DNA of 64,000 nt from Buxus sempervirens (Eukaryota > Streptophyta > Magnoliopsida > Buxales > Buxaceae), in assembly GCA_947561395.2 (NCBI GenBank), contig OX387185.1, forward strand, positions 24,123,866 to 24,187,865. The letters run 5' to 3'. Shown one piece after another: positions 242 to 42,630 of the stretch. The notes under the pieces are model-generated. The model saw only the letters and a list, made by a program, of their open reading frames with translations, searched no databases and was not told where the DNA came from. Position 1 is the stretch's first letter. Each line of letters begins with the position of its first letter. The position numbers and the translations under genes are program-made.

Positions 242-397
242 AACCTGCAACTCAGGCCGATTAATAACATTTGCCTTCATATCCAGTATATATTACCGGA
301 TACAAAGACATATGCATGTATCCGGTCATTGTTACCAAATACAATAAGGCATATGTTTATCCGGCACTTAATATCGGATACATGCAGAAAATGAATA
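242..397. repeat. Array of 21-bp palindromes at 39-bp period (element A)
   Basis: Four units start at 242, 281, 320 and 359, exactly 39 bp apart. Each is a 21-bp imperfect palindrome of the form ATCCGG-N9-CCGGAT followed by an 18-bp spacer. Unit 1 has the core CAACTCAGG. The same array, with the same period, recurs at 42514 and in solo LTR C at 32433. In C it lies inside an LTR, which suggests the left end of this window may be LTR or leader sequence of element A. No protein-coding content is visible. Confidence 0.8.
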
Positions 398-514
398 AAT
401 TGGCTTTTTCAACCCGAATTTTCAAAATAAAATGCCTAAACAATGTGGATAATCCTTAGGCACCCCAAAGAAAATATAAAAATGTCCAAAAAAATAAAAA
501 TAAAAATAAAAATA

Positions 515-1290
515 AATGCATATTCCTTGGTTGGTCTTCTTTTTACCAATCAAATCAAAAAAAAAATGGGACCTCTGGAAGCCCTAGAATATTCCATGAA
601 CCCTTGGTTGGTCTTCTTTTTACCAATCAAGTCAAAAAAAATGGGACCTTTGGAAGCCCTAAAATATTCCATAAAAAAACCCTTGGTTGGTCTTCTTTTT
701 ACCAATCAAGTCAAAAAATTGTAGGACCTCTGGAAGCCCTAAAATATTCCATGAACCCTTGGTTGGTCTTCTTTTTACCAATCAAGTAAAAAAAATGGGA
801 CCTTTGGAAGCCCTAAAATATTCCATAAAAAAAACCCTTGGTTGGTCTTCTTTTTACCAATCAAGTCAAAAAATTGTGGGACCTCTGGAAGCCCTAAAAT
901 ATTCCATGAACCCTTGGTTGGTCTTCTTTTTACCAATCAAGTCAAAAAAAATGGGACCTTTGGAAGCCCTAAAATATTCCATAAAAAAACCCTTGGTTGG
1001 TCTTCTTTTTACCAATCAAGTCAAAAAATTGTGGGACCTTTGGAAGCCCTAAAATATTCCATGAACCCTTGGTTGGTCTTCTTTTTACCAATCAAATCAA
1101 AAAATTGTGGGACCTCTGGAAGCCCTAGAATATTCCATGAACCCTTGGTTGGTCTCCTTTTTACCAATCAAGTCAAAAAAATGGGACCTCTAGAAGCCCT
1201 AGAATATTCCATGAACCCTTGGTTGGTCTTCTTTTTACCAATCAAATCAAAAAAATTTTGGGACCCTTGGAAGCCCTAGAATATTCCAAC
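515..1290. repeat. Tandem repeat, about ten units of about 77 bp
   Basis: Ten units start near 522, 602, 680, 756, 834, 911, 989, 1066, 1142 and 1218, each with CTTGGTTGGTCTTCTTTTTA and GGAAGCCCTA. In much of the array two variants alternate (ends ATGAACCC and ATAAAAAAACCC), so a dimer of about 155 bp may be the copied unit. The repeat sits in the untranslated leader just before gag of element A. Short ORFs across it are products of the repeat and not genes. Tandem repeats in untranslated parts of Tat/Ogre elements are known seeds of satellite DNA. Confidence 0.9.
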
Positions 1291-1499
1291 ACAAAAACAA
1301 AAAACAAAAAAAAAACAAAACAGAAAAATAAAAAAATAAAAAAAACAAATCTGGATTGGTGTTCACCTAACCTACTTGTTTACATGTATAGGGGTGTGAC
1401 TCAAGATAACTGGAAGCTAACATGTTCTGTTAATTTTTCCCCAGGTACATTTACTTGCAACCCAGTTACAATTATTTGCAACCATTGCTCCCGTGACCA

Positions 1500-3680
1500 G
1501 AGCCATGAACACTGAAGAGAACCAAGCCCAAGCCACCGTACCTACTCAGGACTTTGCTCAGCTGCAAGAGCAGGTGGCCGGTCTGGCCAAGATGCTGGGA
1601 GACCTACTGGCGGCTCAGGCCCAACAGGCTCAAGCCCAAAATCAAGCATCGACTTCTCATCAGGCACCACCACCGCAGGCCTACATGCCGCCTCCGGCTC
1701 AACCCATGCCTGAGCCCATTTCTGAACCAGTCCCTGAACCCATTCTGATCAGGGAAAATACAGCTGAATCAGAGAAAGAGCTGGAGAAAGAAAAGGCCAG
1801 AGAAGAGATGGAAAAGAAAATGCTGCTCAGAATAGAAAGGATCTAGGAAGAGCTGAAGGAAGTGAAGGGAGGAAACAGCCATGGAGGCACCACCTTCGAG
1901 AATCTGTGCATGTACCCTGACGTATGTCTACCGGCCAAGTACAAGTGCCCGGACTTCGACAAGTTCGACGGCACAGGCTGCCCCATGAGCCACTTAAAAT
2001 TATACTGCGGGGCACTATGCCAATTTGGCCGGGATGACGGCATATTAATCCAACTCTTCCAGAGGAGTTTGACCGGGTCAGCTCTTAGGTGGTTCGCTAC
2101 AGTGGACCATGGAAGGATCAGGAGGTGGAAGGACTTGGCTGACGCATTCCTGGATCAGTACAAGTTTAACTCTGAGATCGTGCCAGACCAGTACGACATG
2201 ATGAGGATGAGCAAGGGGAAAGATGAGCCGGTACGGCAGTACGCCAAGAGGTGGAGAGAGGCCGCCTCCCAGGTCAGGCCACCTATGCAAGAACCGGAGA
2301 TGATCTCCACGTTTATGGGCACACTGGGGCAGCCCTTCTACAACCATCTGGTAGGTCAGATTACCACCAACTTTGCAGCCCTGGTGCAAGTGGCGGACCG
2401 GATCGAGGAGGGGGTCAGGTCAGGAAGGCTGATAGACTACTCTACTCTGACTGGTCAGTCTGATTCCTCTGCATCCATGGCCCAGAAGAAAGGGGCTGGA
2501 TTCAAAAAGACCGGGGCCCGAAAAGAAGGGGAAGTGAATCTGGTCCAGGCTCCTCCAGCCAAGAAGCCGCTTCACGTGAATATCTCTGCACCCCAACAGG
2601 CCCAGCAGTCTTACCAAACCCCGCAGAATGTCAATTTCACCCCCTCCGTACCAGCAAACCCAAGGAGGGCTTTTACCAGGAAGGAAAGGGAGGCCTGGTT
2701 AGCAACGAGAAGGAACCGGGTTTTCACTCCTCTCCCAATATCTCTGTCCCAGTTGCTACCAACCCTACTGAAGGGGGAGTATTTGACTCTAAAAGAGCCC
2801 AACCCGAATGCCACCAGGGGAAGGAATTTTGACACATCGGTCACCTGTGACTTCCACATGGGTGCACTGGGGCATTCTACAAATGCCTGCTGGGTGTTGA
2901 AGCATGCGGTCCAGGACTTGTTGGACCAGAAGGCCTTGGTGTTTAACACTGCTGCATCAGCCCCGTCTGGGAATGATATTGGGCAGAACCCTTTGCCGTA
3001 CCATAATGGGGCAGGCCCATCCAATTCTATCACCGCCATATCCACCACCAGAAGGGCCTTTGACCCATCACAGCTCATAGCTCCAGTAGGGACCACTGTC
3101 CAGGTCCTATTTTTCCCAGAGGAGGAAGAAGAGGAGATCAACATGGTCTCACAGAAAAACAATCCTGCTACTGAGGACATAAGCTCCTCTTTAAACCGGG
3201 TCTCCTCTCTTATGGCCCAGATAAATACTGCAAGGCCCCCATTGGTCTTCAATTGCAGTCCACCCATCTATTCACCATCTAAGCCGTCCAAGGCTCCACT
3301 GGTCATCAACCTTGACCCCACCACTGCTTCCATCAATTCTTCTATCCCCACAGAATCCAAACTTCAACCCTTGGTTGTAAATGTGCAGCCAGCCCAGACT
3401 ATCCCTAAACCGGCCCATACATCCCGGTCCAAACTCCAGCCGTTGGTGGTCAACATCCCTAAATTAGCCTATTCTGAGGCCGCTGTACCATGGAATTACA
3501 GCGAGGGAATCACGGCTACGGTTCCAGTGGTTAGGAACCAGAACCAGGAGGAGGTGAACCTCATGACGAGGTCAGGGAGATGTGCAGGGGGTGAAGAGAA
3601 AGAGAAGGAGACAGAAGTAGAAAAAGAAAAAAAAGAAAATGAAGAAAAAATCATAAAAAAAGTGAATTCAATCTTGTGGA
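1500..3680 (+). CDS. gag region of element A (fossil)
   Basis: Capsid/nucleocapsid polyprotein region of a Tat-type element. The start is rich in Gln, Ala and Glu, likely a coiled coil, followed by a proline-rich stretch. The retrotransposon Gag core follows, with CPDFDKFDGTGCP and LIQLFQRSLTGSALRWF. Further on is a zinc-knuckle-like CDFHMGALGHSTNACW. The same order and motifs occur in element B at 26.5-28.7 kb. A pyrimidine-rich stretch ending CCCCAG lies about 55 bp upstream of the first Met, similar to the CCCAGGTAC just ahead of B's gag. This may be a splice acceptor, which is an inference. Broken; boundaries are approximate. Confidence 0.8.
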
Positions 3681-4890
3681 TCAGTTGAACAAGGTCGCGG
3701 CCCAGATTTCAATACTGGGCCTTTTGCTGAATTCTGAAAAGCACAGGGATGCATTGTTAAGGGTGCTACAGAGTGCACACATATCCCAGACAATCGATCC
3801 AGACCAGCTTGGCAAAATGGTTGGTCAAATCTTGTCACATAATGTGATAAGTTTCTCTGAGGGTGAGATCAGCCCAGGTGGGTGCTATCACATTGACCCT
3901 TTGCACATCACAGTGCTTTGTAAGGGCTGCATGATTGCACGGGTTTTAATTGACAACGGGTCGGCATTAAACGTTTGTCCGTTAATCACTTTTACCAAGC
4001 TTGGTCTGGACCAGTCGAGGATCAAGCAGAATAGGAGAATAGTGAGGGCTTTCGATAACTCCAAGACCCACTCCCTAGGGGAGATTGAACTGCCGGTCAC
4101 AATTGGGCCGAATATCTTTAACATCACATTTGAGGTGATGGATATACCCGCAGCCTTCAATCTGCTCCTAGGGAGGCCGTGGATACATTCGGCTAGGGCA
4201 ATACCATCCACGCTCCACCAAAGGGTGAAATATGTAAGAGGGCAAAGGGTGATAACAGTCCTAGCCGAAAACTTGGTGCCTCCCATTGTGTCACCTGACG
4301 TACCCTTGATAAATGTAGACTTAACTGTTGACAAGATTGCGTTTCAGTCATTTCAATTTGAGACAGTAAATTTCATACCTGGGGGGTGTGAGAAAAAGAA
4401 GAAAAAGGGGACCACTGCAGAAAAGATGGTGAAGAAAATGATGGAAAAATACCACTTTCACCTGGGGAAAGGCCTGGGAATCAATTTGCAGGGGATGGTA
4501 GAGCCAATCATGGCTAAGAAACTGGTTCCTAAAGTGGGACTGGGGTTTAAACCCCGAGGCTGGAGGAAGATGAAGCATGAAGAAGGAGAGGAAAGAAGCA
4601 AAGGAAAATTCCCTCATTTAAGGGAAAGTTTTCCAAAACCCTCTTACATCATCCAACTGCCTCCTCCTAGGGACCAGTCCAAACCTCCATACCACAACCT
4701 CAACCCATTTCAAAAGCCTTTTGTTTCGGCCTTGCAACCATACAACACGTCTCCAATACTGGGAGCAGTGGATAGGCCTAGGCCACAACCAGAGCAGCGG
4801 ACAGACTTCTCTGAAGATGTGGGGGCTTTCTTCGCCATGACTGAAGGCGAAAAAACTGGTAGTGACAGTGAGCTACTTTTCATTGATTGA
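3680..4890 (+). CDS. protease and G-patch-like region of element A (fossil)
   Basis: Retropepsin-type aspartic protease region. The active-site stretch reads VLIDNGSALNVCP, the usual form in Tat elements, followed by the flap-side LLLGRPWIHSARAIPSTLHQ. After it comes a G-patch-like stretch with GKGLGINLQG and VGLGFKPRG. Element B has the matching part with GEGLGKYKQG. In a live element the protease would cleave the Gag-Pol polyprotein, and G-patch segments bind nucleic acid or partners in related plant elements. Boundaries are approximate. Confidence 0.75.
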
Positions 4891-5059
4891 GCCGCAGTGA
4901 AGATTCCGGATGAGGTTATATCTGGACTGGGCCCCGTAGCAGAAAAGGGCAGTACTTTGACCTTTGATGGCATCCGACGTGGGGCTTGAGGAGCAGGCTT
5001 TCCCTATTTCCCCTGCTCCCAAAAATTTTGTATTAAACAATTGGGAGGAAACTCCCCTT

Positions 5060-6960
5060 ACCTTTGAAGCAGCGTCTGTGTGGCAAACTGACGCGGCTTC
5101 CAAAAAAAACTCCAATAGTGGAATGCCATTTCCCTGAAGGTTCTAATGGGCCTTCGTCTTCAGGGGAATTATGTTTAGAAGGCCCACAAAAAACCCAAAA
5201 AGATTTTTCTATTTTTTCTAGAAAATTTAATTTTTTCAAAAAGGTTCAAACCACTTCTGAACCATATAATCAGACCGAATTGGACCAGGTTGAATATGAC
5301 TTCGACTTCGAGCTCGACTTTGACCTCATGGGGATCGAAGAAGAGATCGAGGTCGAAGGAGAAGACGTTCCAAAAGAAATTGAATACCAATTGGAACGCC
5401 ATGAAAAGGGGGTCCAACCTAATATTGAGGAGACCATATCCATAAATCTTGGGACCGAAGAGGACCCAAAAATTGTGAAAATCGGGTCATGCTTGTCTAA
5501 TGTGCAGCGAAATGAAATGTCACGGTTTTTGGCAGATTACAAGGATGTGTTTGCTTGGTCGTATCGGGACATGCCGGGGTTGGACATTGACATGGTGGTG
5601 CACAAGTTGCCAATTTTGCCAGGGGTTAAGCCGATTAAGTAGAAGCTGAGAAGATTGAAGCCAGAATGGACCTTGAAGGTCAAGGACGAGGTGGTCAAAC
5701 AATTTCAAGCCGAATTTTTGGCAGTCTCTACGTACCCTGAGTGGCTCGCAAACATAGTGCCAGTACCAAAGAAGGACGGGAAAGTCAGAATGTGCGTGGA
5801 CTACAGAGATTTAATAAGGCAAGCCCAAAGGACGATTTTCCGCTTCCACACATAGACATCTTGGTGGACAATACTGCAGTACATAGTCTATTCTCCTTCA
5901 TGGATGGCTTCTCAGGATATAATCAGATCAAGATGGCTAAGGAAGATCAAGAAAAAACAGCATTTATCACACCTTGGGGCACATTCCACTACACAGTCAT
6001 GCCATTTGGGCTCAAGAACGCTGGGGCAACATATCAGCGGGCCATGACAGTACTATTTCATGACATGATCCACAAAGAGATGGAGGTCTACATGGACGAT
6101 ATGATTGCCAAATCATGCAAAGAGGAGGACCACTTGATCAATCTGAAGAAAGTGTTTGATCGGCTCAGGAAGTACAGTCTACGGCTTAACCCGGCTAAGT
6201 GCGTCTTTGGGGGGCTACATCAGGGAAGTTACTGGGGTTTATAGTGAGCCGAAGAGGAATTGAAATTGACCCAGCTAAAGCCAAGGCCATAATTGAAATG
6301 CCAGCACCCCGAACCGAGAAGGAGGTTCGTGGTTTTCTCGGAAGGATTCAGTACATAAGCCGGTTCATAGCGCAGCTCACGGCTATCTGTGAACCAATTT
6401 TCAAGCTTCTGAGGAAAGATAACCCGACAGTCTGGAATGAGGATTGCCAGCAGGCCTTCGATACGATCAAGGAATATTTACTAAACCCACCTGTACTAGT
6501 GCCACCAACCCCAGGAAGACCACTGATCCTGTACTTGTCAGTGTTAGAAACATCGATGGGATGTGTCTTGGGGCAGCATGATGAGACTGGTAGAAAAGAA
6601 AGGGCCATCTACTATCTGAGTAAAAAATTCACAGAATATGAAGCCAAATACTCACCATTGGAGAAGACTTGCTGTGCTCTAGTGTGGGCAACTCAGAGGC
6701 TAAGGCATTACTTCCTTAGTCACTCCACACTATTGATATCCCGGATGGACCCGCTGAAGTATTTATTTGAGAAACCGGCACTTACTGGCAGGACGGCAAA
6801 ATGGCAACTACTACTGTCCGAATTTGACCTCACGTACATCACCCAGAAGGCGATCAAGGGTCAAGCCATAGCTGATCACCTGGCTGCACATCCTCTGCCA
6901 GAATATCAACCCTTGAAGACCAACTTTCCCGATGAGGCAATCCTATACACTGAGGAGGAC
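5060..6960 (+). CDS. reverse transcriptase and RNase H region of element A (fossil)
   Basis: The region opens with an acidic linker, then the RT domain with VPVPKKDGKVRMCVDYRDL, FMDGFSGYNQIKMA, the catalytic VYMDDMIAKS and the RT end GFLGRIQYISRFIAQLT. The Ty3-type RNase H follows with GCVLGQHDETGRKERAIYYL and YSPLEKTCCALVWATQRLRH. The similarity to element B is strong through all of this, so the two belong to one lineage but not to one insertion. Broken; boundaries are approximate. Confidence 0.85.
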
Positions 6961-7400
6961 AGTGAGAGTTCTTGGCAGATGTTCTTTGATGGGGCCGCCA
7001 ACATGAATGGAAATGGAATAGGGGCAGTCTTGGTCAAACCAGATGGTTCACACATCCCGATTGCAGTAAAGCTGAGATTCCAGTGCACCAATAACATAGC
7101 AGAATATGAAGCATGCATAATTGGATTGCAAGCAGCCATGGATCATGGAGTAGAGGAACTTGACGTATACGGGGATTCGAGTCTTATCATCTTCCAAACA
7201 ACTGGTGAGTAGAAAACCAAGGATCACAAATTGATCCCCTATCACCAGTACTTGGAAGAAATAAGCACAAATTTCACTCAAATTTCCTTCAACTATATGC
7301 CAAGGGCCAAGAATCAGTTTGTGGATGCGCTAGCAACCTTGGCTTCAATGGTCAGCATACCAGAAGGAGTAGACATCAGACTACTGGAAATTGAGGTTAG
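6960..7400 (+). CDS. second, archaeal-type RNase H (aRNH) of element A (fossil)
   Basis: After the standard RNase H comes a second RNase H fold: WQMFFDGAANMNGNGIGAVL, NNIAEYEACIIGLQAA, VYGDSSLIIFQ and FVDALATLASM. The order D, E, D, D of likely catalytic acidic residues is visible. A dual RNase H of this sort is a known hallmark of the Tat lineage and separates it from Athila and the chromoviruses. Confidence 0.8.
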
Positions 7401-7429
7401 AGATGAACCAGCTTACTGTCTCGTTCTAG

Positions 7430-8629
7430 AGGGAGCACCAGAAGAAGAAGCACCGTGGTTTCAAGATATCAAAAATTTCTTGAACAATCGGAGTCTACCA
7501 GAAAATGCCACGTCTACTGAGAAGAGGACAATACAGAGGTTGGCGGGTCAGTTTCTGCTAAGTGATTGAAACTGTACATGGAGGAGTTTGTGGGCCCCAC
7601 ATGAGCGGGCACATGCTGGCAAAGAAGATTTTGAGGTTGGGCTATTACTGGACGACCATGGAGCATGATTGCTGTATACATATCAGGAGGTACCATCAAT
7701 GTCAAATCTATGCAGATAATAAGCATGCACCCCTAGGTGAGTTGCACAACATGACATCACCATGGCCTTTCTCTATGTGGGGCATAGATGTCATTGGCAT
7801 GATCTCCCCTAAGGCGTCAAACGGGCACAGATTTATCCTGGTGGCGATTGACTACTTCACTAAATGGGTAGAAGCGGCTTCATATGCGAACATCACAAGC
7901 AACCATGTTATTTAATTTTTTAAGCACAATATCATTTGTCGCTATGGACTGCCAAGTGCCATAGTATCAGACAACGCTTCAAATATTAAGAACAAGGACA
8001 TGAAGAAAATGTGTGAGCAGTTTCAGATCACCCACCATAAGTCAGCTCCGTATAGGCCAAAGATGAATGGGGCAGTGGAAGCAGCAAATAAGAATATAAA
8101 GAAAATCATTCAGAAGATGGTAGTGAGTTACAAGGATTGACATGAAATGCTGCCACTTGCTCTACATGCCTATAGAACCTCGATCCGGACCTCAACCGGG
8201 GCAACCCCATATTCCCTAGTCTATGGAATGGAAGCAGTCTTGCCAGTGGAAGTAGAAATCCCATCACTCAGAGTGCTCATGGAAGCAGAATTGGAAGAAG
8301 CTGAATGGATACAGTCAAGACATGATCAACTCAACCTGATAGAAGAAAAGCGGTTAAAAGCACAATGTCATGGCCAGTTGTACCAAAGGAGAATGGCCCG
8401 GGCCTACAATAAGAAAGTGAGACCCAGAACTTTCCAGGAAGGAAACTTAGTGCTAAAGAAAATCTTACCATTTTTGGAAGACCCTCGTGGTAAGTTCAAG
8501 CCCAATTGGGAAGGGCCTTATGTCGTCAAGAAGGTCCTATCAGGGGGTGCACTCATCTTGACAGAAATGGATGGGACAGATTTTCCTGAGCCAATTAACT
8601 CTGATGCGGTAAAAAAGTATTTTCCTTGA
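7430..8629 (+). CDS. integrase region of element A (fossil)
   Basis: An N-terminal zinc-binding part is visible as HIRRYHQCQIYADNKHAP. The catalytic core has GIDVIGMISPKASNGHRFIL and DYFTKWVEAASYAN, and the C-terminal part has PYSLVYGMEAVLPVEVEIPS and GPYVVKKVLSGGALIL. No chromodomain is seen, as expected for Tat elements. The region ends with a plain stop after VKKYFP, matching element B's end (VKLYYP). Confidence 0.8.
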
Positions 8630-9790
8630 GTGAATATTTCTAGGAAATGATCCGAGACCATTTTTCTTTATTTCCTTCAAAAATTTTAATCCTTAGTCTA
8701 GCCAAGTTGAACCAGTTCATTTCTTTGATAAACCCAAACCGGATTTACAGTCTTAAATTGGGGCAAAACAAATTGGGGCAAAGCCAATTGGGGCAAAGTA
8801 AGGAAAAGAAAAAAAAAGGCAAAGAAAAATGGCAAATGAAAGCCAAGTATGAAAAAAGATGCAAAGAATGCAATCTGGGGAAAAATCGGTAAATTTATCA
8901 TGACTGTAAGTCCGGTTGACCTATTTCCACACTTGAAAATTTTTGGGCCTTTAATACCCTTTCTTTCATAAACCAAACCTGGCCTTTGTTTCGTCCTATT
9001 TTTAAGCCCTCGGTGATCTTAGTTTGTTCATTCAAATGTCAGAGTAAGATTGGTGATGACGGAATGCAGAAGCCGGCCCTAGTGAAAATCGTAACTGGCG
9101 CTAGAGGCAATATTGGCAAAAAAAAAAGGGCAAAAAGAAAAAATAAAAAACAAAAAAAAATGAAGAAAAATCAAAGGTTGAGTTGATCATAGAGATCTGA
9201 GATTGAAACAAAGTTGGCATGAGCAAAATGGGGTCAGTTTTGGCATTTGGGGATGACTCTAAAAGGTCCTGAGATGGACGGTTCTAATCCCTCATTATTT
9301 TGTGGACTACCCTTTTCATTATTTAACCTGGTTCTAATCCCTTTAATTATAGGTGATTAAGTGCATGGACCAAATTTCAAAAAATAAAAAAAATATAAAA
9401 AGGAAAAATTATACTTTGGCCAGTGATGAGAAATCAAATACTTTTCATAAAACCTTTGTTTTTACAAGCATCTGAGCATTCTGAGGCCAATAATATAAAA
9501 TTTTTATTTTGAATTGAATACTTGGGCTTTCCACTATTGGAGTTCAATTTCGTACAAAGGTATGAAAGAAAAATGTGCAGGAAATAAAGCTAATCTCTGT
9601 CTCCTAGCCGCTCCTCAAGCTCCCGAATCCGAGCTGCTTGAGCTGCGATAACTCCAAAAGCCCCCTCTGCAGCAGGATCACTCAAGAAGGAAATGACCTC
9701 ATCTGAAAGAGTCTGCCTAATCCTCATGCTCCTAAGGTTGGCTAAAGCATCCTGATGCTTCTGCCGCAGTGCTCGGACTTCAAGACAGCG
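8630..9790. other. Post-pol spacer of element A
   Basis: AT-rich, non-coding stretch between integrase and the antisense ORF. It holds A-rich runs with AAAGGCAAAGAAAAATGGC-like text and a GATGACGGAAT motif near 9055. The latter also appears in the post-pol spacer of element B near 38410, which supports common descent. No gene is supported here. Confidence 0.6.
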
Positions 9791-11118
9791 GGCCTACCTA
9801 TGCTCTTCAAGTTGCTTCTCCATAGCCAAGCGGCGAGATACCTGCTCTGCAAGTTGCCTTTCCATGTCAAGGCCCCGTATCCTAAGCTCCTGGGCCTCTC
9901 GTACCCATATCTGCTGAAGTCTCTTGTGGGAAGCTCTCTCAGACTCCAAGATATCCTCATAAGTGGGAGCCAAAACTACGGGAGGGTCTTCAGGTAATGG
10001 AGCCTGACTCTGTATCTGCTCCTTGATCCAGAAGAGATAATCCTTCACATGGGCTTCTGAGAAGATCAGGCCACGCATGAAGCGAACATAGGACCACTCC
10101 CTCATCAACCAGGCATTCAGCTTCATGGTAGCTGGAGAAAGGGGCCCAAGATGATCCTCATACCCACTTGGGATGATAATCCCCTGGATCGCTCTGAACT
10201 GACGAAGGACCCGCAGAGGAAGATACAGCACTGCTTGTCTCAGGCCAGCTAGAATCAAAAAGTTGCGGTCACGAAAGCTAATCACTGTCTCTGCATTGGG
10301 TTGATAAGTACCAGGCCATCTCACCTGGTCATCCTGAAGTGAACCCAAGAAAGTGAACCAGCCCTGTTTGCCTCCTGGAATGTCGGGACACCCCCGGTTG
10401 CTCATCAAGATGGGGACTTTCAAGCTCGGGAAGAAGTGTCGATTGATTTCTTCAATCTGACTCAGATGATCAAGTAGCCAAAGTTGCAAAGGAGAAGAGA
10501 TATATCAGCACATTGTAAAAGAAAAAAAGCAAAAAAGAGAAAAAAGCAAAAAAGCAAGAAAAAAGCAAAAAAGAAAAAAAAGCAAAAAAGCAAGAAAAAA
10601 GCAAAAAAGAAAGCAAAAAAGCAAAGATAAAAAAAAAAATTTTACCTGCAGGATCTGGGCACATGCTAGGAAGCGTTTCGACTTCCTATTGTAGCAATCA
10701 GTCAATGCCTGATACATCCCAGCCAAAATCATAGGGGCCAACCTCTCCCTCTCCCTAACCTGGCATATCACTGAAATCAAGGCCAAGTCCACCTCATCAT
10801 CATCTCGTGGGAAAAACAGCTGGCTGACCACTATCAGGGTCAAGGCATTGAACCGGGCTTCCTTGTTCTCCCCCCTCAAAAGCTTCTCAGTCAAAAAAGA
10901 CTTAGACAAGGTCAATAGGGTGTCAGAATCTCCTAAGTCCTTCCCTATGCCCAGAAAAGTAGAAGCCTCTTTTTTGTAACTAGGCCTAAGAAGGGGATTC
11001 ACCACCTTCTCTGCAAACCTCAAGCCCAGGATGGTTTCTACCTCTTCTATGGTCGGGGTCATCTCATGGTTCCCAAAACGAAACAAGTTGAGGTCGGGAA
11101 CCCAGTGACCAATCATGG
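9790..11118 (-). CDS. Antisense DUF7745/plant-mobile-domain-like ORF, downstream part (fossil)
   Basis: Minus-strand coding similarity to the plant domain usually annotated DUF7745 (plant-mobile-domain-like); I give the number from memory. Visible blocks are MTPTIEEVETILGLRF, SKSFLTEKLL, ALTLIVVSQLFFPRDDDEVD and LRVLRQFRAIQGI, then a charged coiled-coil C-terminus (about 9800-9980). The sense ORF of element B (23.6-25.1 kb) has the matching blocks MTPTIEEFELFLRF, SKTFLAEKI and TVVVLSQLFFP. Element B inserted at its upstream edge, and its N-terminal side lies at 42.15-42.38 kb. Antisense ORFs between pol and 3' LTR are known in Tat kin such as Grande. Broken. The function of the domain is unknown to me. 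Confidence 0.7.
10500..10645. repeat. GCAAAAAAG-type low-complexity tract
   Basis: About 145 bp made of GCAAAAAAGA/AGCAAAAAAG units; on the minus strand it is a long pyrimidine run. It lies inside the antisense DUF7745-type ORF. A CTGCAG-GTAAAA junction at its upstream side looks like a splice donor, so it might be an intron, but I see no clear acceptor. Element B's sense copy lacks it. Confidence 0.7.
11114..11118. repeat. Target-site duplication of element B, left (CATGG)
   Basis: CATGG directly precedes the 5' LTR start TGTTAGCACC. The same five bases directly follow the 3' LTR end GTGCGCACA at 42146-42150. A 5-bp duplication is the norm for Ty3/gypsy integrase. Confidence 0.92.
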
Positions 11119-11679
11119 TGTTAGCACCTGATTTTTGCACCCCCAAAATAAAGAAAAATGAAAAGTCAAACTAAAAGTCAAACCTTGAGGGGGTTAAAAA
11201 TTGACTTTTTGATTCAAGTAAATTTGGCCATCAAACTTCATCTCATTGAAAAGAGCATTTCGACACGATTCTAACGCAACTGAATTTGCTAGAATCGGAG
11301 TCCAGATGAGAAAGATATGAGCTGGTCAAACTTTTGGGGAGCAAAAAGTTGACTTTTTGCTCGACCCCAATTCAGCTGCCAAACTTGACCCCAGTGGACA
11401 GGTGGTTCCGAACCGGTTCCAACGACACTAAGTTTGCTGAAATCGGACACCGGATGAAGAAGTTATGAGCAGTTGAAGTTTCAGAAAAACTGCCCATGTG
11501 GCAAAAAGGGCAGCAAAAATGGAATAAACCAATAAAATAAATAAGATAAATGTGTTTAATAATATTTTAATAAAGAGAATCTCGCTTTTTAAAAAAATAA
11601 TCGGAAAATCGAATAAGAATCTTGCAAAAAAACCAAATTGAATAAAGGTTTGAAATCCAAACATTTTAAAAACGTGCTG

Positions 11680-11865: not shown

Positions 11866-11879
11866 ACGGAAATTTTGCC

Positions 11880-11888
11880 TATAAATAG
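11880..11888 (+). promoter_or_regulatory. TATA box of the 5' LTR of B
   Basis: TATAAATAG, followed by a C/T-rich leader, which is a typical plant retroelement promoter layout. The 3' LTR has the same box at 40499-40507. Transcription start not determined. Confidence 0.75.
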
Positions 11889-32432: not shown

Positions 32433-32588
32433 ATCCGGCAACTCAGGCCGGATCACCTGCGGCCTAGGTGTATCCGACAACTAAGGCCGGATAACCTATG
32501 GCCCCTGTGTAGCCGGCCAGTGAGGCTGGATCACTTACAGACCCTGTGTATCCGGCCTGAGTTGCCGGATACACACAGAAATGTGGTT
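32433..32588. repeat. Array of 21-bp palindromes at 39-bp period (solo LTR C)
   Basis: Units start at 32433, 32472, 32511 and 32550, exactly 39 bp apart, with the form ATCCGG-N9-CCGGAT and 18-bp spacers. Unit 1 has the core CAACTCAGG. Unit 4 has the reverse core (CCTGAGTTG), so one unit is flipped. The preceding text AAAAATGGCCATTTC also precedes the array of element A (218-236). Confidence 0.88.
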
Positions 32589-33625
32589 TTTGCTCATTTT
32601 TTATCCTTTGCCGATTTTTGGAGTGACTTAAACCAAAACCACTGAACCAACAGGGTTTCCGGGCCACCCGGAAACCCAACTTGGGACTTGGACCGCCGGT
32701 CCAACTCGGAACACCCGTGGGCCTTCCAACGGGGCCCACCAAGCCCAATAAACCCAAAAGCATGCAATTAAACCACTTAAGTAAAATCAACTTATTTGAA
32801 CCAGATGGGCCAAAGCCAATGCGGCCCACCCAAGCCTGGATGTGTGAAATGAGTGCATAAACTGCTTGGTTTGGCCGAGACCATGGGCCAGGGCCTGTCG
32901 GGCCCGCTAAAGCCCGCCAACCGAACCGAGTTAGGGTGCAAGCCCTAAACTCCAAGGAACTGGGCTTCCAAAGCCCAAAGCCTGGATCACGGGCCCCAAG
33001 CCCAATGACCAGCCCACTTTGGCAAACTAAAGAAGATAAAAGATGCAAAATCACTTGGCCACCATGTGGGCCCACCTAAGGGGCCCACAAACCAATCCAG
33101 CCCACCACTTGCATGAAAACCACTTAATATTCAAACTTGAACCCCAATGTAAAATCCAGCTCATTAACCAAAGCCCACAGGGCCTCCTAGGGTTAGACAG
33201 AGGCCCACCAAGGGCACATGGGCTAACCCAAGCCCACTAAGGGTACCGTGGGCCTTCCAATGGGGCCCACCCAAACAGACCCAGATAATTTAAATAAAAC
33301 CAAGATAAAATCAACCAAAGGGACCCACACCACTCAGGTGGTCCCACCAAGACCTAACAAAAAATGCATGCTGGATTAGGAACCGGGTGAGAACCAGAAT
33401 AGGAAATGCTGACTAAAATCAGGGAACCCACGGGACCCGTCATCCGACGGGGTGGACCGGGGTGTCTACGGACTTCCCCGGACCACAATCGAGAACAGAC
33501 TTAGAATCTCAAGCCGCAGACCAAAAGCCCTAGTAGACAATATTAGGCACCCAGGTGTCCGCCTGCACCCCATCAGGCGGTGGCGACTCCAATTTACCCC
33601 GTGCCGCGTTTCCCACGCGCGCACA

Positions 33626-36200
33626 GGGATGATGGAAGAACTGTCTGCTTTATTCTCTTGGCAGTCAGTTGACACCGAAAAACCAGCCATCCCTGAAGAG
33701 GCGTTTGTCTACCCATCAGATGATACCGAAGAAGAAGAGCCAGCTCAGTACATCTACATGATGGAAAGCCAGGATAGTTCAGGAGAACCCACTCTAAGGC
33801 AAAGGTCTCCCCCACCTCCTATCTGCATTATACACCCAAGTACAAGGGATGGTCTGGGTCAGATGTTCCAGAATATGCCCCAAGTACTGGGACTGCCTAC
33901 TGAGCTGGCTTACCATGAAACTTATGGTAGCTGGGCCCCTGACGAACATTCTTCCAGCAGGAGGGATGAATCATCAGGAAAAGCTGTAACCAAGGCATTG
34001 CCTAAGGTGGAACCACCCAACGAAGTCACTGTTCGGGTACCAGGGACTGTCATCCGCCGTGGGGTATGGATCAGTATATCATCCGAGGATTCGAGCCAAA
34101 ATCAACCAAAGAAGGGCACAGCTAATGACCCCATCTGCATCTCCTCTAACAGCAGCATCAGCATGATACAGACTGGGAAGGTGAATATGGTGAACGCTGT
34201 AACCAAAGACAAGCACGCATTGCAGAACTGGAGTTCGACGCCACTTGCCACTCGCAAAGCCAAACTACCACAGGGAGTTTCTTCCACTTCTGAAATTCCC
34301 CCTGTAGATATTGCTGCACTTTTTAATAAATGCGTGAAGTCTTTTGATTATTTTTCTGCTTCTGTGAATAATTCTGCAAATAAGCAAACCCAAAATCGCA
34401 ACCTTAGTATCAATCTCGACGCACACCCGAAAAATTCGGAGCACGAGATAGATAATCAGGTTGCCACAATCAAACAAAAACAAAAAGGTCAAAAAGAAAT
34501 CCAAAGTGTCGAGCATGAATCAGATAGTGACACTTACTCATCACAACCCGATGATTCAAAAATTATCCCCAGTGATTCTTTTGAACTTGAGGATAATGAT
34601 GAACCATGGGAGACCCCACCTGAAATCCAATTTGCCTTGAACATGCATGAAAAGGGTCTCCAGGCTAATATTGAGGAAACTGAACCTATCAACATAGGTA
34701 ACACAACACAACCAAGGATTCTTCAAGTTGGTAAAAAGCTGACATTATTACAGAAAACACAGATAACTGATTTCCTAAAATCCTACATTGATGTGTTTGC
34801 ATGGTCATACGAGGATATGCCTGGGTTAGACACAAATTTAGTTGTGCACCGGTTACCTATAAAGTCTGAGGCCACACCAGTGAAGCAAAAACTCAGACGC
34901 ATGAAACCAGAATGGGCCCTGAAGATCAAAGAAGAGGTCACCAAGCAGTTAAAAGCTGGGTTCTTGAAAGTTACAGATTACCCAGAATGGTTAGAAAACA
35001 TCGTACCAGTCCCCAAGAAAGATGGAAGGGTCAGGATGTGTGTTGATTACAGGGATCTGAACAAGGCAAGCCCGAAAGATGACTTCCCGCTGCCACACAT
35101 TGATATACTGGTTGATAATACTGCAACTCATTCCATGTTCTCCTTCATGGATGGATTCTCTGGGTATAATCAGATAAGGATGGCACCTGAAGACATGGAA
35201 AAGACATCCTTTATCACACATTGGGGCACATATTGCTACAAAGTGATGCCATTCGGGTTAAAGAATGCAGGCGCCACATACCAGCGGGCAATGACTTTGT
35301 TATTCCACGATCTGATGCACAAGGAAATGGAAGTATACGTGGATGACATGATTGCAAAGTCAAAAGAAGAGGAAAATCATTTGGTGAACCTTGGAAGAAT
35401 GTTTGACAGGCTCAGGGAATGCAAGCTCAGGCTGAACCCGAATAAGTGTGTATTCGGAGTTACTTCAGGGAAGCTACTTGGATTCATTGTTGGGAAACGA
35501 GGAATTGAGGTTGATCCTGTCAAAGTAAAGGCAATTCTGGAGATGCCTCCCCCATCCACAGAAAAAGAAGTGAGAGGTTTCCTTGGCAGATTACAGTACA
35601 TCAGTCGGTTCATAGCACAGATGACTCCCGTGTGCGAACCAATATTCAAATTGCTAAAAAAGGATAACCCCGTGATCTGGAATGAAGATTGCCAAGAAGC
35701 ATTTGATAAAATCAAGGCCTATTTGATGAGCTCGCCGACTTTGGTCCCCCTGTACCATGACGACCTTTAATCATGTACCTGTCAGTCACAGAAACGGCAG
35801 CCGGATGCGTCCTAGGGCAGCATGATGATACAAGAAGAAAGGAGCAAGCAATTTATTATCTGAGCAAGAAATTTACCAATTATGAAGTAAGATACACGTT
35901 GCTTGAGAAGACCTGTGGCGCGTTGGTATGGGCAGCTCAGAAGCTCCGGCACTATCTCCTCAGTCATACTGTCTTTTTGATCTCAGATGCAGATCCCTTG
36001 AAGTACACTTTTGAAAAGCCAATCTCCACTGGAAGGATAGCCAAGTGGCAGGTTATCTTATCTCAGTATGACATTGTCTACACCACGAGAAAGGCAATAA
36101 AGGGACAGGCAGTAGCAGATCACTTGGCAGAACACCCCGTGCCCGACTATCAACCACTTCTCACCGGGTTGCCGGATGATGAAATTATGTGTGCCGAATC
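33626..36200 (+). CDS. RT and RNase H region of element B (fossil)
   Basis: After the second GGGAT copy the coding sequence resumes with an acidic linker. The RT follows with VPVPKKDGRVRMCVDYRDLN, FMDGFSGYNQIRMAPEDM, the catalytic VYVDDMIAKS and GFLGRLQYISRFIAQMT. The Ty3-type RNase H has GCVLGQHDDTRRKEQAIYYL and TLLEKTCGALVWAAQKLRH. Most of it reads openly, consistent with a young element; about one break is apparent. Confidence 0.88.
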
Positions 36201-36650
36201 AGTAGAAAAGGAAACCGGATGGCAAATGTTCTTCGATGGGGCTGTCAACATCAATGGGAAAGGGATTGGAGCAGTAATCATTTCCCCAGAAGGAGTCCAT
36301 CATCCAATAGCAGCAAAACTCTTGTTCGATTGCACTAACAACATGGCAGAATACGAAGCATGTGTGTTAGGCTTGCGAGCCGCAATTGAAATGAATATCC
36401 AAGAGTTAAAAGTTTATGGTGATTCCTGTCTAATCATCTACCAAGTAATGGGAGATTGGCGGACTAAGGATCCTAAGTTGGTGCCATATCAGGAACTGAT
36501 TAAGGAATTGGAAGGACGGTTCAAAAATGTGACGTTTGATTATATGCCACGAGACAGGAATCAGTTTGCAGATGCCCTGGCAACACTGGCATCTATGGCA
36601 ACCATCACTGGGGACACTTGGGTACAACCATTGGAGATAGAAGTGCGGCA
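36200..36650 (+). CDS. Second, archaeal-type RNase H of element B (fossil)
   Basis: GWQMFFDGAVNINGKGIGAV, NNMAEYEACVLGLRAAIEM, LKVYGDSCLIIYQVMGDW and QFADALATLASMA give the RNase H fold with its acidic residues in order. Its presence after the usual RNase H assigns B to the Tat lineage. Confidence 0.85.
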
Positions 36651-37950
36651 TTCTCCTGTCTACTGTTTTAATGTTGAGAGGAGCACGCCAAAAGGGGAAC
36701 TCTGGTATGCAGACATAATGAGGTACCTGAGAAACAGGACTTTGCCAGAAAATGCCACAGCATCTGAAAGGCGCACGATTCAGAAACTGGCAGGACAGTT
36801 CTTCCTCAGTGGAGACAAGCTATACAAAAAGTCCTATAATGATTCACTGCTGCTATGTGTAACAGAAGAAGAGGCACAACAGCTGGTTGATGAAGTCCAT
36901 GGGGGACAATGTGGCGCACATATGAACGGGCATATGCTAGCAAGGAAAATCTTAAGAATGGGTTATTACTAGTTAACTATGGAACATGATTGCCATATCC
37001 ATGTAAGGAAATGCCAGTTATGCCAAGTTTATGCTAACAACATTCATGCACTGCCCAACACCTTGTACTCAATGACTTCTCCTTGGCCCTTCGCCATCTG
37101 GGGAATTGATATGATTGGAGAGATCCATCCGAAGGCATCAAATGGGCATCGATTTATCTTGGTTGCAATAGATTATTTTACCAAGTGGGTAGAGGCCGTG
37201 TCCTTTACAGAGGTCAAAGGGTCCCAGGTGCTGAAATTCATCAGAAACAACATTGTCTGTCGCTATGGTGTGCCTGAAGCACTTATCACAGACAATGCCA
37301 AGAATTTGAATAACAAGGACATGGACAAAATGTGTGAAGATTTGAAGATCAGACATCTGAATTCTACGGCATATCGGCCCAAGATGAATGGAGCAGTAGA
37401 GGTTGCCAACAAAAATCTGAAGAAGATATTGGAAAAGATGGTAGTCACCTACAGAGACTGGCATGAGAAGTTGCCATATGCTTTGCATGCATACCGAACC
37501 TCAATCAGGGTCTCAACCGGAGCAACTCCTTTTTCTCTTGTATATGGAATGGAGGCAGTCCTTCCCGTGGAAGTGCAGATCCCTTCACTCAGAATCCTGA
37601 AGGAAGCAGAGGTTGATGACATTGAATGGGAAGAATCAAGGTTTGACCAATTGCAATTGCTTAATGAGAAGAGAATTAAGGCTTTATGCCACGGGCAACT
37701 CTATCAGCAGAGAACAGCTCGGACGTATAACAAGAAAGTAATACCACGACACTTCAAGGTGGGAAACATTGTTATGAAGAAGATATTCCCCCACCAAGAA
37801 GATAATAGAGGGAAATTCAAGCCAAACTATGAAGGACCTTTCATAGTACACAAAGTTCTGTCCAGAGGAGCACTAATCCTACAAGAGATGGACGGAACTA
37901 TTTTTCCTGAGCCAATAAATGCAGATGCAGTCAAACTGTATTATCCTTGA
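36650..37950 (+). CDS. Integrase region of element B (fossil)
   Basis: Zinc-binding part with HVRKCQLCQVYANNIH, catalytic core with WGIDMIGEIHPKASNGHRFI, DYFTKWVEAVSF and ITDNAKNLNNKDMDKMCEDL, and a C-terminal part with GPFIVHKVLSRGALILQEMD. No chromodomain. It ends at the stop after VKLYYP. About one break is apparent. Confidence 0.87.
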
Positions 37951-39696
37951 GATCGTTCCAATTGGGAAATGAAGAGAGGCCATCCTTCACTCTCCCTCAA
38001 GCCTGTAAATCCTCCCAAATACCCAAAAAGTTTCCCCTAGTTAAACACTTTTTGGGCCTGAAAGTTTCTTTTCTAACCCAGTACAAGTATTCCTCACATC
38101 AAAATGGGCATTCCTGGCCCCCACACAAAAAAAAAAAAAAAAAAAAGAGAGCAATTGCAAATAAAATCAACAAAAAGAAGAAAAGAAAAGCAAGTACAAA
38201 ATATGAACCCCACACCAAAGAAATAAGCCAGGATGTAAGCCCCAACAATAAAAGGAGCACTGTACAGACCTATAAAATCACAGCCTTCTTGGGCCACTTA
38301 TCTTTCTTTCAAAACCCCGGCCTAGCCTACATTTCGTCCTATCTTGAAGACCTCTCGGATCCCAAAGTGAATGATCTTGAGAAAAATAGTCAAATCTGTG
38401 TTTTCTGGCGATGACGGAATTGGATTCTCCCTGAAAGGACCAGACATGGTGAAAACCCAAAAAGGGCGCTATGTGCAAAAAGGGTCAGTCGTGGTCAAAA
38501 AAAAAAAAAGCTAGTCATGCCTTGATTAGAGATGGAAATGCAGCAAAAAACAGAAATAGGATGGACAGTGCACTAAACAGGGATAACCAAGTGATCTGAA
38601 GGGCCCAGACTGGCATACTGTGTTTAGGTTAACACTTCACAAAGGCCTATGATGACAAGGCTAAAAATAGCAAGCATTCTAATCTATGTCTAACTTAATG
38701 ATTGACTTTTATGATAATTGCAGGCACAAACACACACTACCACATCTGTGTTTTACCGTAATTATTCTGCTTAACTATTCTTGGAATTTCCCCATCTGTG
38801 CTGCTAACCCGTGAAGAGGGGCTCATCGCCTTAATCAATAGCCATTTTGATTTTGGCCTAGAATAAACCAACCCTGCATATCTGACATTTTGTTCCTTGC
38901 ACAGGTTCAGAGAAGGAAGAAAGATGCAAGATGAACATAAGGAGGATACTTTGTTCCTTCATTCCCCAGCAGAGGCTTCTTCCCTTTCATCCCCAGCGGA
39001 GCTCAGGAGAAAAAAGATCGTCAAGATCCTCAGACCCTCCAACAAAACTTCAAAGAGCAAAGAGAGACATCACAATAATCCCCCATCGGACCCCCAATGG
39101 AGCAGCTCAGGAGTGAGGAAAGAAGATTTAATGCCTCAACAGACAAAGAACCTGGCAAGTGGAAGCAACAAGGAAGAGCAATAATAGGCCAATTCGCCCC
39201 TTTTTGTAAATTTTGATTCTCACTTTTGTAAATAGCATAGGCTAGAGTAGGTGTGTGGTCTCTGAGATGATGGACAGCAGCGCGAAAGCTTCCTCCCATC
39301 CTCCTACCGGCACTCCCAGTCCCAAACCTTAGCTTAACATCGAAAAAAAAAAACTCTCAAGGAATCAAGAACTGAAGTCACTAAAAGCGTTAAACAGAAC
39401 AAACAAAAAGAAAAGAACATTGTTAAGTGCCTTGCATCAACGCCGAAACAGATTGATGAGCTCAGGTTTAATCCTATCTTTCTTTTTCAAAGACAGAAAA
39501 CTAAGGAACAGCCCTATTCAAGCCCGAAAGAGGGTATAGGGATTCCAAAATCAGGAAGTGATACCAGACATCTGACACTTCCCTTTCATTAAAAACAATT
39601 CAGTGATTGAGCTCGTCGACCCTGTCGACAAAAATGCAAGGTACAAAAATAAGGTTCTTTTTCTTCTTTGCCGTTCATCCCTAAAGTGACTCCAGC
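37951..39696 (+). other. Post-pol spacer of element B
   Basis: About 1.75 kb of non-coding sequence between integrase and PPT, with poly-A runs near 38128 and 38500 and the GATGACGGAAT motif shared with element A. A 95-codon ORF at 38897-39184 has low-complexity content and no family I recognise. In contrast to element A there is no antisense DUF7745-type ORF here. Confidence 0.6.
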
Positions 39697-39709
39697 AAAG
39701 AAGGGCAGC
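39697..39709 (+). promoter_or_regulatory. Polypurine tract of element B
   Basis: AAAGAAGGGCAGC, purine-rich and directly before the 3' LTR start TGTTAGC. This is the expected plus-strand primer site. Confidence 0.7.
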
Positions 39710-42145
39710 TGTTAGCACCTGATTTTTGCACCCCCAAAATAAAGAAAAATGAAAAGTCAAACTAAAAGTCAAACCTTGAGGGGGTCAAAAATTGACTTTT
39801 TGATTCAAGTAAATTTGGCCATCAAACTTCATCTCATTGAAAAGAGCATTTCGACACGATTCTAACGCAACTGAATTTGCTGGAATCGGAGTCCAGATGA
39901 GAAAGATATGAGCTGGTCAAACTTTTGGGGAGCAAAAAGTTGACTTTTTGCTCGACCCCAATTCAGCTGCAAAACTTGACCCCAGTGGACAGGTGGTTCC
40001 GAACCGGTTCCAACGACACTAAGTTTGCTGAAATCGGACACCGGATGAAGAAGTTATGAGCAGTTGAAGTTTCAGAAAAACTGCCCATGTGGCAAAAATG
40101 GCAGCAAAAATGGAATAAACCAATAAAATAAATAAGATAAATGTGTTTAATAATATTTTAATAAAGAGAATCTCGCTTTTTAAAAAAATAATCGGACAAT
40201 CGAATAAGAATCTTGCAAAAAAACCAAATTGAATAAAGGTTTGAAATCCAAACATTTTAAAAACGTGCTGGACCGTATTTTAATTATGGGCAGGGCATGC
40301 CCGTATTTCAAATACGGGCAAGATTCCTGAAGAAAACACGCGTCACCGTACGGCGGGACACGCGTCCCGTACGGCTGATTCGCGAGATTTGCAAATGTGC
40401 GTTTTCCGCCCGTATTTGAATTACGGGCAAGGCACGCCCGTACTTGAAGTACGGGCAAGGCACGCCCATACTTCAAATACGGGCACGGAAATTTTGCCTA
40501 TAAATAGAGAGGCCACCCCCCTCATTTCAACAAGCCATCCTTCTCTGGCCTACCCCCTCTCCCTCCCGGTGCTTCCCACGGCCAAGTCCTGCCCAGTTGC
40601 TACCACCCTACCCTTAGCCCAAACTTATTTTATTCCCAAAATACCCCTCACCTTGCACAAACCATGTCCTAAATCTCTCTTTCCTCTTGTAAATATAAGC
40701 AACTTGTCAAACCTCTGCCAAAAACTCACCTGAAAGTTGGCTAGGACGCGGAAGCGCTGCCAAATCATCTGGAGAAATACAACAAATCAAGAACGTTTGT
40801 ACGGTAAAAAGCTCTTTTAGTATTTCGTGTTATGTCAATACAAATCATTCTTTCGTTTCTTGGTTTCTTTATATTCTACTAATCTGTTCATTGAAGCTGT
40901 GCATGGTTGAGGAATGTCTCATGCATCTCTATGAGGAAAAGAAGGAGAATAAGGCCATAAAAAGGGGAAGAGATATGTCCACAAAAATGATTAAACTTCT
41001 TAAAAATGATATGTAGTTTTGAAAGGAGTTTACCCTCTCTAAACAACCAGATGTATCCCTACCCAATTCTCTCACTTATTCCCTGCTAAGTACCACAAGA
41101 TGTGCTGGAAAATGATGGAAGCAAGAGAAGAGGAATGAAGACTTTGAACCTATATTCAAGCACATTGAAAGAAGGATGTTTGGAGCAAATGGAGCTAATG
41201 TACTATTCTAGAAGACACCAAAATCGCTACTGAAGTTGCAGGCAGTCAAAAGAAAGCCACGGAACTGATCCAGATTGAAATCGGCAGCAAACATGCAAAC
41301 CAAATCCTATCCGTAAACTCAGGTCGGTCCAGCTTGGACCGTGTTTGATTCACGGACAGGAGAAACCGTAGTAAATTCACGGTTAGGTTGGACCGTAGAG
41401 GAAAAACGGGCAAATGCAAAAATGATGTAAAAGTGTAATTTCTTGGTTCGGTTGGACCTGACCCGGCCTAAGCCGGCTTGAACCATTCCCTTAAACCACT
41501 TGGGCTACATTAAGCCCATTTTTGGACTTTGGGCCTTGATAGGCCCATTAAGATCCCTTTGGCCCACTAGTGGGGCCCACTTTTGACTGGCCCATACCAG
41601 GCCTGTTTTCAATAAACAGGCCCAAGGCCACTTGACTCTTGGCGAATGGGCCAAATCCAAGCCCACTAAGCCCATGGAATTTGTAAATAAATAAGATAAC
41701 CAAATGGGTTATCCAATAACCCAACTGGGCCCAAAGCCCAACCATGGCAGCCCACGGGTCTTCCAACGGGACCCGGGTCCGACCCACTCCACTTAAATCA
41801 ATAAAAAGATAAAATCAAATAAAAGGGACCCACACCTCCAAAGGGCCCCGCCAGACCCAATAAGCAGCATGCTGGTCTAGGAAGGGTGAACTTGACTCAA
41901 AAAACCAGGGAGACCCGAGGGACCCGTCAAACCGACGGGGCGGACCGGGGTGTCTTTAGGACTTCCCCGGATCGTAACCGAGGACTTAGATAGAACTCTG
42001 AAAAGCCGCAGACCAGACTTAGACCCGATTAGGGCAAAACCGTGTCTGCCTGCACTCTCAGGCAGTGGCGACTCTGAATGTCCCGAGGCACGCACCAAAG
42101 GTGCGCCCGGTGTGCGATCTAGGATCCAGGTTTTAGGTGCGCACA
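39710..42145 (+). repeat. 3' LTR of element B
   Basis: 2,436 bp, aligned to the 5' LTR over its full length with about 18 substitutions by my count. It has one extra 28-bp palindrome unit, around 40436-40463. TATA box at 40499-40507. It ends GTGCGCACA, followed by CATGG. Confidence 0.93.
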
Positions 42146-42150
42146 CATGG
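42146..42150. repeat. Target-site duplication of element B, right (CATGG)
   Basis: Second copy of CATGG. The coding similarity of the antisense ORF continues immediately to the right, which confirms the insertion point. Confidence 0.92.
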
Positions 42151-42382
42151 CCTCTATAATCTCCCACTTGAAGGGAACCTTGGGAATGAGCAGGGTATGG
42201 CCTAGATTAGTAGAATCCCATCTCCTCTCCTCATCTAGGGTCATAGAGTTAACCCATCTTGTGTAAAAGGAATCCACAGGGTTGTACCTAGTGAGATTTG
42301 GGGGTTTTGATCTGAAAGGTTGTTTTGCAGGGGAGGCAGTGTGGACAAACAATAATAGGGCAGAAGATGATCTGGATTCCAT
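42151..42382 (-). CDS. Antisense DUF7745-like ORF of element A, N-terminal part (fossil)
   Basis: Minus-strand stretch from the Met at 42382 (MESRSSSALLLF) leftwards to the insertion point of B, with RYNPVDSFYTRWVNSMTLDE and IPKVPFKWEIIEAM. The W-N-rich stretch and the LLIPKVP block sit where B's sense ORF has WTRQLQGDEQIKWEQ and LLNVPINLDMI. Its downstream part lies left of element B, at 9.8-11.1 kb. A TATA box lies about 110 bp upstream. Confidence 0.6.
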
Positions 42383-42493
42383 TGGAGTTGATGGAAGCAA
42401 GCTAGAACTCAAGGGGAGGAAGAAAAAGGCGAAAAAGGGGGTTTCTAAACTCAAAAACTCGTAAAAAATACACAAATCCCGAGGCTGGTTGCA

Positions 42494-42499
42494 TTTATA
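42494..42499 (-). promoter_or_regulatory. TATA box upstream of the antisense ORF
   Basis: On the minus strand the text reads CTATAAATGC, about 110 bp upstream of the likely ATG at 42382. The 39-bp palindrome array begins 14 bp further upstream, the same spacing as between array and TATA box in B's LTR. This suggests a dedicated antisense promoter, which is an inference. Confidence 0.55.
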
Positions 42500-42513
42500 G
42501 CATCTTCTAATGT

Positions 42514-42630
42514 ATCCGGTAACTCAGACCGGATACAAAAGGTGTTATTCATATCCGGTTAAGTATACCGGATACAAAGGGTATCATGTGTATCCGGTAT
42601 GTTAATAATAATACATAAATCATAACAATC
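42514..42630. repeat. Array of 21-bp palindromes at 39-bp period (antisense promoter)
   Basis: Units start at 42514, 42553 and 42592, exactly 39 bp apart. The first reads ATCCGG-TAACTCAGA-CCGGAT, a perfect 6-bp arm pair. Spacers align with those of the array at 242 (ACAAAAGGTGTTATTCAT against AATAACATTTGCCTTCAT). The third unit is decayed. Confidence 0.85.

Follow-up and report, generated by a model that had tools for sequence, protein, structure and literature searches.

What keeps rows of evenly spaced palindromes in the retrotransposons of Buxus sempervirens? The question is raised by a 64,000-nucleotide stretch of its genome (C6:24123866-24187865, "the window" below), in which an earlier note had pointed out three arrays of palindromes, ATCCGG-N9-CCGGAT, repeated at exactly 39 bp, here called A (at 242), B (at 32433) and C (at 42514). 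A and C lie in a giant Tat/Ogre-like long terminal repeat (LTR) retrotransposon, element G, and B in a solo LTR of a second family, B/T. We propose that the arrays are, quite probably, docking sites of a dimeric DNA-binding factor that serve retrotransposon promoters as upstream activating sequences (UAS).

A palindromic site repeated at a fixed phase

The pattern is far more widespread than the window. In the genome (676.5 Mb in 247 contigs, all covered by the site counts, the reversed pattern being the control) ATCCGG-N9-CCGGAT has 32,622 exact sites, against 36 for the control. A T precedes and an A follows the palindrome in 28,399 of them (87%; control 5) and the half-site is therefore TATCCGG, so that the site of the earlier note was found, albeit stated too short. 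The arms belonged to the search pattern and their conservation partly comes from the choice of hits; the flanking T and A lay outside the pattern. Centres shorter than 9 bp are at background (N0-8 pooled, 119; control 142), which speaks against a version with a 4-bp centre, as in the Sirevirus motifs discussed below, in this genome; with longer centres (N10-23 pooled, 1,465; control 269) most of the matches listed are coincidences inside arrays.

The palindromes stand in rows of two to five with a 39-base step in several retrotransposon families. An 18-bp gap between palindromes was counted 20,735 times (control 20), gaps of 19-23 bp, pooled, 62 times (control 379), and gaps of 10-17 bp, pooled, 741 times (control 203), the listing of the last including a 17-bp variant of array 3 of G and an unrelated 15-bp repeat. 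Among 37 arrays from 20 loci and the window, 27 have four units, seven have two and three have three; 90 of their 94 steps measure 39 bp and the other four 38 bp. An enlarged sample, in which 20 of 150 steps are not 39 bp, overstates the irregularity because off-phase loci were preferentially picked: the second set of 20 loci was mostly drawn from the listings of off-phase pairs (L025 and L026 from that of the 18-bp gaps). L001-L004 and L029, duplicates of L014 and L045, are omitted from the counts of steps, TATA edges, core pairs and arm changes. In the window, six pairs of palindromes (at most two mismatches each) are exactly 39 bp apart and 60 block shuffles gave none; chance does not explain the phase. 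Single palindromes (at most three mismatches) are mildly enriched there, 24 being found against a shuffle mean of 12.7 (maximum 30), and one of 100 shuffles reached 24.

The arms and the phase are kept while the rest of the repeat drifts. Between ten representative arrays (33 units) the identity is 0.93 and 0.95 in the arms, 0.40 in the 9-bp core and 0.33 and 0.32 in the outer halves of the spacer; these arrays were chosen by hand and do not stand for ten independent families, since three belong to type B and a single family T locus supplied two. Between the units of one and the same array the spacer identity is 0.36 and 0.40. Of 81 distinct cores, 47 have a complementary inner pair 7/15, where shuffles predict 30.6; thinning leaves 25 of 43, with 15.9 expected. 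Complementarity of the other inner pairs is weak or not significant. The dyad symmetry thus includes the flanking T and A as well as positions 7/15.

Coupling of the arrays to TATA boxes

Arrays and TATA boxes are linked at fixed distances, a fact that is new relative to the earlier note. In the genome CCGGAT-N12..17-TATAAA occurs at 3,821 sites (control 837) and CCGGAT-N18..23-TATAAA at 263 (control 485), while the reversed box, CCGGAT-N12..17-TTTATA, occurs at 674 (control 723), some of these being array promoters read through overlapping T runs. By eye, all but five of about 100 listed places of the first pattern begin with CCGGATA. In 64 sampled arrays a TATAWA lies within 45 nt outside the array at 17 of the 128 edges, always at a distance of 13 or 14 nt (chance predicts about 1.1 such edges at 9-18 nt); adjacency to a TATA box is therefore a feature of some arrays, not of all. 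The TGAGT core, which is the conserved core of the first unit read outward, is present at 15 of the 17 TATA-linked edges. These edges form two classes, array 3 of G (seven copies, including array C of the window) and the promoters of family T (ten copies).

A different distance is found in the LTRs of G and of G-like elements, where all 11 measured cases have a sense TATA box, CTATAAATAG, some 157 bp beyond the array; the value is approximate, as it was taken to the C before TATA and in forward copies from one base late. In the related LTRs of L014 and L018 the sense TATA box is about 158 and 169 bp past the array. Array 4 of G has a TATAAG 11 bp from the arm in three of six copies.

Elements that carry the arrays

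The earlier note had taken A, B and C for three independent retroelement contexts. Only two elements are involved (Table 1): the left part of G up to 11118 and its right part at 42146-42604 both align to the copies L009, L012, L016, L020 and L024, thus A and C are internal arrays of one element that is interrupted at 11118/42146. The interrupting element, N, is framed by a 5-bp target duplication, CATGG (11114-11118 and 42146-42150), and has no phased array in its LTRs. By alignment, the counterpart of array A is the leader array of copies L008, L011, L015, L019 and L023, among others. The palindromes, the 39-bp step and the core AACTCAG in the first unit were confirmed for all three arrays; the state of the units needs correction, the first unit of A being badly decayed and C consisting of two intact units and one left arm. 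We saw no flipped unit in C, if C is the array at 42514; it is array B that ends in a flipped unit (32550, CCTGAGTTG), whose core is the reverse complement of the core of the first unit.

Table 1. Features of the window, with positions counted from its first nucleotide.
Feature	Position	Strand	Remarks
Element G, left part (giant Tat/Ogre-like)	1..11118	+	leader, gag, G-patch open reading frame, RNase H and aRH-like domains
Array A	242..379	+	units 242 (decayed), 281, 320 and 359, with 4, 1, 2 and 1 arm mismatches of 12; leader array of G, upstream of gag
Two antisense open reading frames of G, stop to stop	9797..11170	-	interrupted by N; last 52 bases lie in N
Element N, nested, with further insertions inside	11119..42145	+	LTRs 11119-13526 and 39710-42145, 98% identical
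Solo LTR of family B/T, inserted in N	29891..33625	+	target duplication GGGAT, 29886-29890 and 33626-33630; carries array B
Array B	32433..32570	+	units 32433, 32472, 32511 and 32550, with 0, 1, 2 and 0 arm mismatches of 12; in solo LTR
Element G, right part after nested insertion	42146..42604	+	similarity to other copies ends at 42601-42604
TATA box (TATAAA)	42494..42499	-	14 bp outside first unit of array C
Array C	42514..42604	-	units 42514 and 42553 (no arm mismatches of 12) and third left arm 42592 (4 mismatches; similarity stops here in 5/5 alignments); array 3 of G, upstream of antisense plant mobile domain open reading frame

The plan of G is seen in five copies on contig C1, among the matches listed. 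Each LTR has an array, the two being 20.1-20.7 kb apart, and internal arrays lie about 3.6-3.8, 14.9-15.6 and 19.4-19.8 kb from the first one. In the L011/L013 copy the LTR measures 2,271 bp and its array starts 92 bp inside. Four complete LTR pairs are 99.47-100% identical, hence these copies moved recently. According to Pfam, G has RVT_3 after RT_RNaseH (its open reading frame (ORF) 8141-8626 is without a Pfam match), and the order along N is reverse transcriptase, RNase H, RVT_3 (aRH-like) and integrase, which places an aRH domain between RNase H and integrase. The RNase H-aRH arrangement is given for Ogre/Retand elements (PMC6317226). No envelope domain was found in 20 ORFs scanned with Pfam, the models of which env-like genes can escape. 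The lineage of family B/T is presumptive: its LTR ends are similar to those of N (69-72% along 300-350 bp), and its internal region was not found. A relative in L045 has two arrays, one of which ends 13 bp before a TATA box (5270); the second one, the counterpart of B, lies about 945 bp further.

Several other features were recorded. Soon after array A, the leader of G contains a 76/155-bp tandem repeat (window 525-1288), with related repeats aligning in other copies. A telobox-like stretch, TTAGGGTTTT, follows the end of the LTR array at about 19 bp in 10 of 10 such arrays (L007, L009, L011, L013, L015, L017, L019, L021, L023 and L024), and the same stretch is also present beside the arrays of L014 and L018. 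In L022 (C1:5481001-5491000) a 5.5-kb inverted repeat (3857-9368, 99.4%) carries two mirrored arrays and is either a real palindrome or an assembly artefact. Eight identical matches of the N10-23 pattern at C1:8464559-8571846 are spaced by 15,318-15,327 bp, probably by tandem amplification of an LTR-sharing element; comparable series among the CCGGAT-N12..17-TATAAA sites are three matches at intervals of 61,027 bp (C1:8865086-8987164) and three at intervals of 12,246-12,247 bp (C1:22742735-22767253). The window also has a host-like gene with Surp modules and a PRP21-like domain (56168-58441), the product of which would be a protein like subunit 1 of splicing factor 3A.

Antisense plant mobile domain ORFs

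Copies of G have, after pol, two antisense ORFs with a plant mobile domain (PMD) by Pfam. In the window, ORF 10508-11170 matches PF10536 (PMD, E 1.1e-11) and PF24924 (DUF7745, E 1.4e-15), ORF 9797-10504 has no Pfam match, and the first antisense PMD ORF is broken by element N. Array 3 and its TATA box precede the first methionine of the antisense PF10536 ORF by about 0.1 kb, and array 4 precedes the second PMD ORF by about 1 kb; the antisense PMD ORFs are putative expressed genes. An extra PMD ORF, as present in G, is a trait of the Ogre/Tat lineage, PMD having been reported in 57% of Ogre elements (PMC6317226). Element N contains a PMD ORF as well, of 419 amino acids with PMD and DUF7745 (23833-25092), which is in sense orientation upstream of gag, opposite to the two antisense ORFs of the related element G.

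Comparison with known systems

The earlier note knew of no described element of this kind, which is too strong a statement. The closest described thing is the repeated motif of Sireviruses, Ty1/copia elements whose LTRs carry many copies of a palindromic, dyad-symmetric motif with a CGG-CCG core a short distance before a conserved TATA box, with further copies in front of ENV (Bousios et al. 2010, PMC2829016). In the citrus Sirevirus motif, AATCCGGCTWRCCGGATT, the half-sites ATCCGG...CCGGAT enclose a 4-bp centre (PMC2829016). The arrays described here share with these motifs the palindrome with its CGG-CCG core, TATCCGG-N9-CCGGATA (the 28,399 sites with flanking T/A), and the LTR cluster upstream of a TATA box, at about 157 bp in G and G-like LTRs (11 of 11) and at 13-14 bp in ten sampled family T copies. 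They differ from them in the 9-bp centre, the 39-bp phase and the typically four units, in the position of the extra arrays, beside antisense PMD ORFs and apparently not beside ENV, and in their hosts, since G and N are Ty3/gypsy elements of Tat type by their Pfam domain order, not Ty1/copia (the internal parts of B/T were not identified). In the available part of PMC2829016 we saw no fixed phase or fixed TATA distance described for the Sirevirus motifs.

Two other systems are less similar. The targets of VANC proteins in VANDAL elements are likewise short motifs repeated in tandem in the non-coding regions of an element, but VANDALs are DNA transposons and the VANC21 motif, YAGTATTAY, is non-palindromic and is bound by the element-encoded VANC (PMC5735166). 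The tandem repeats of Retand elements are family-specific and highly variable, and their antisense ORFs are mostly TRP28 (PMC11963269); here, arrays that are otherwise unlike have one motif and one phase in common, and PMD is the domain of the antisense ORFs. The open-access literature searched, outside which most subscription papers lie, showed no description of phased palindromes at promoters of this kind.

Proposed function and alternatives

We propose that a dimer with sequence-specific DNA binding docks at each TATCCGG-N9-CCGGATA; typically four of these sites, in 39-bp phase, precede a TATA box. The arrays stand either flush with the box, at 13-14 bp from the outer arm, as in the LTR promoter of family T and in front of the putative antisense PMD gene of G, where the core of the outer unit usually reads CTGAGTT outward, or about 157 bp away, as in the LTR promoter of G. 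Once bound, the dimers would bring in the transcription machinery, and several transcription units of G, together with other families, would answer to one factor. The site, its phase, its conservation pattern, its placement and its coupling to TATA boxes are observed; that a protein binds there, as a dimer and with an activating effect, we infer. The earlier note had already suggested selection for a dimeric DNA-binding protein on successive sites, a suggestion that is supported by the kept arms and phase next to spacers of about 33% identity, the preference for 39 bp, the extended dyad symmetry and the TATA coupling in two promoter classes. A host transcription factor is slightly favoured as the binder, because a citrus Sirevirus, which belongs to a different superfamily, is reported to have the half-site ATCCGG too. 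LBD-type transcription factors, which bind CGG...CCG inverted repeats, are a lead on which the literature gave no useful result, and they are not used here.

Several facts weigh against the UAS reading. A step of 39 bp corresponds to some 3.7 turns of the helix, which puts successive sites on different faces. No TATAWA lies within 45 nt of 111 of the 128 sampled edges, and 37 of the 52 edges with a TGAGT core have no nearby TATA box. Copies are related by descent, so that the 17 TATA-linked edges amount to two promoter classes, not 17 independent events, and both classes have some common sequence between arm and TATA box. In three of six copies, array 4 of G has ACTTAAG in place of TATAAG, and its link to the second PMD ORF, about 1 kb away, is a presumed one. 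Finally, the leader arrays (A and B of the window, array 2 of G) have no adjacent TATA box and seem to be downstream of the promoter.

A regulator encoded by the element itself, most simply one of the antisense PMD proteins, might bind the arrays and activate or de-silence the element in trans, as VANC does for VANDAL. This would be a version of the UAS reading that names the factor, or its anti-silencing version, and we consider it rather unlikely. It agrees with the two antisense PMD ORFs of G, which have arrays 3 and 4 upstream, and with the presence of arrays in several non-coding stretches of one element, as for VANC motifs (PMC5735166). However, Pfam gives only PMD and DUF7745, with no DNA-binding domain identified, the PMD ORF of the window has no sequence match to a solved structure, N contains a PMD ORF (taken as its own) and yet lacks a phased array in its LTRs, and the palindromic site is unlike the non-palindromic VANC21 motif (PMC5735166). 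Nor does it resemble the DOWN motif of the MORC1 promoter, CATGCAGTTT, which is absent from the site, and a link to PMD proteins through that motif was rejected. Also unlikely, in our judgement, is a retrotransposon regulon, in which a factor encoded by the giant elements (e.g., an antisense PMD protein) would bind the arrays and, by feedback, drive the LTR promoter together with the two antisense promoters of its own, and would be exploited by other families with the same arrays.

The earlier note's second suggestion, RNA hairpins in the transcript as the selected feature (for packaging, stability or as small-RNA precursors), is improbable. Arrays do fold well: 110-nt windows over seven arrays, on both strands, reach -30 to -62 kcal/mol, each below its own shuffles; leader arrays would be part of the genomic RNA, palindrome clusters of maize Sirevirus LTRs attract small RNAs (PMC10760457), and the inner pair 7/15 covaries, which dyad-symmetric binding explains too. 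Nevertheless, in 144 distinct phased units 77 changes of arm pairs are one-sided and only nine complementary (six of these being the same change at one pair), with six two-sided but non-complementary, and G-U-able arm changes show no strand bias (25 versus 21). The check that the earlier note had proposed, compensated changes together with kept spacing, thus came out for the spacing and against compensation; arm changes that are mostly uncompensated fit conserved half-sites better than RNA pairing, and the missing compensation counts against the latter rather than against DNA binding. The fixed TATA link is, moreover, a relation at the DNA level. Small-RNA effects are possible as a consequence of the strong folding of transcripts. 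A functionless minisatellite spread by copying, finally, can hardly account for the arrays. Many copies do come from recently active elements (the four LTR pairs above), which by itself yields many identical arrays, but this explanation predicts an even decay along the 39-bp unit, which is not seen: spacers are nearly unrelated within one array (0.36 and 0.40) while the arms are at 0.93-0.95, unlike arrays have the same phase, and the TATA coupling speaks against it as well.

Implications for plant retrotransposons

Site, phase, unit number and TATA distance make up an unusually clean cis-regulatory grammar, common to unlike retrotransposon promoters. If the regulon of the giant element were true, it would put some 30,000 sites under one element-made regulator. 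That the half-site matches a Sirevirus motif, from another superfamily, points to one of two histories: both groups converged on a single host factor, or a promoter module passed from one retroelement superfamily to the other. Given some 30,000 exact sites in a single genome, and recently moved copies, what switches plant LTR retrotransposons on becomes directly testable.

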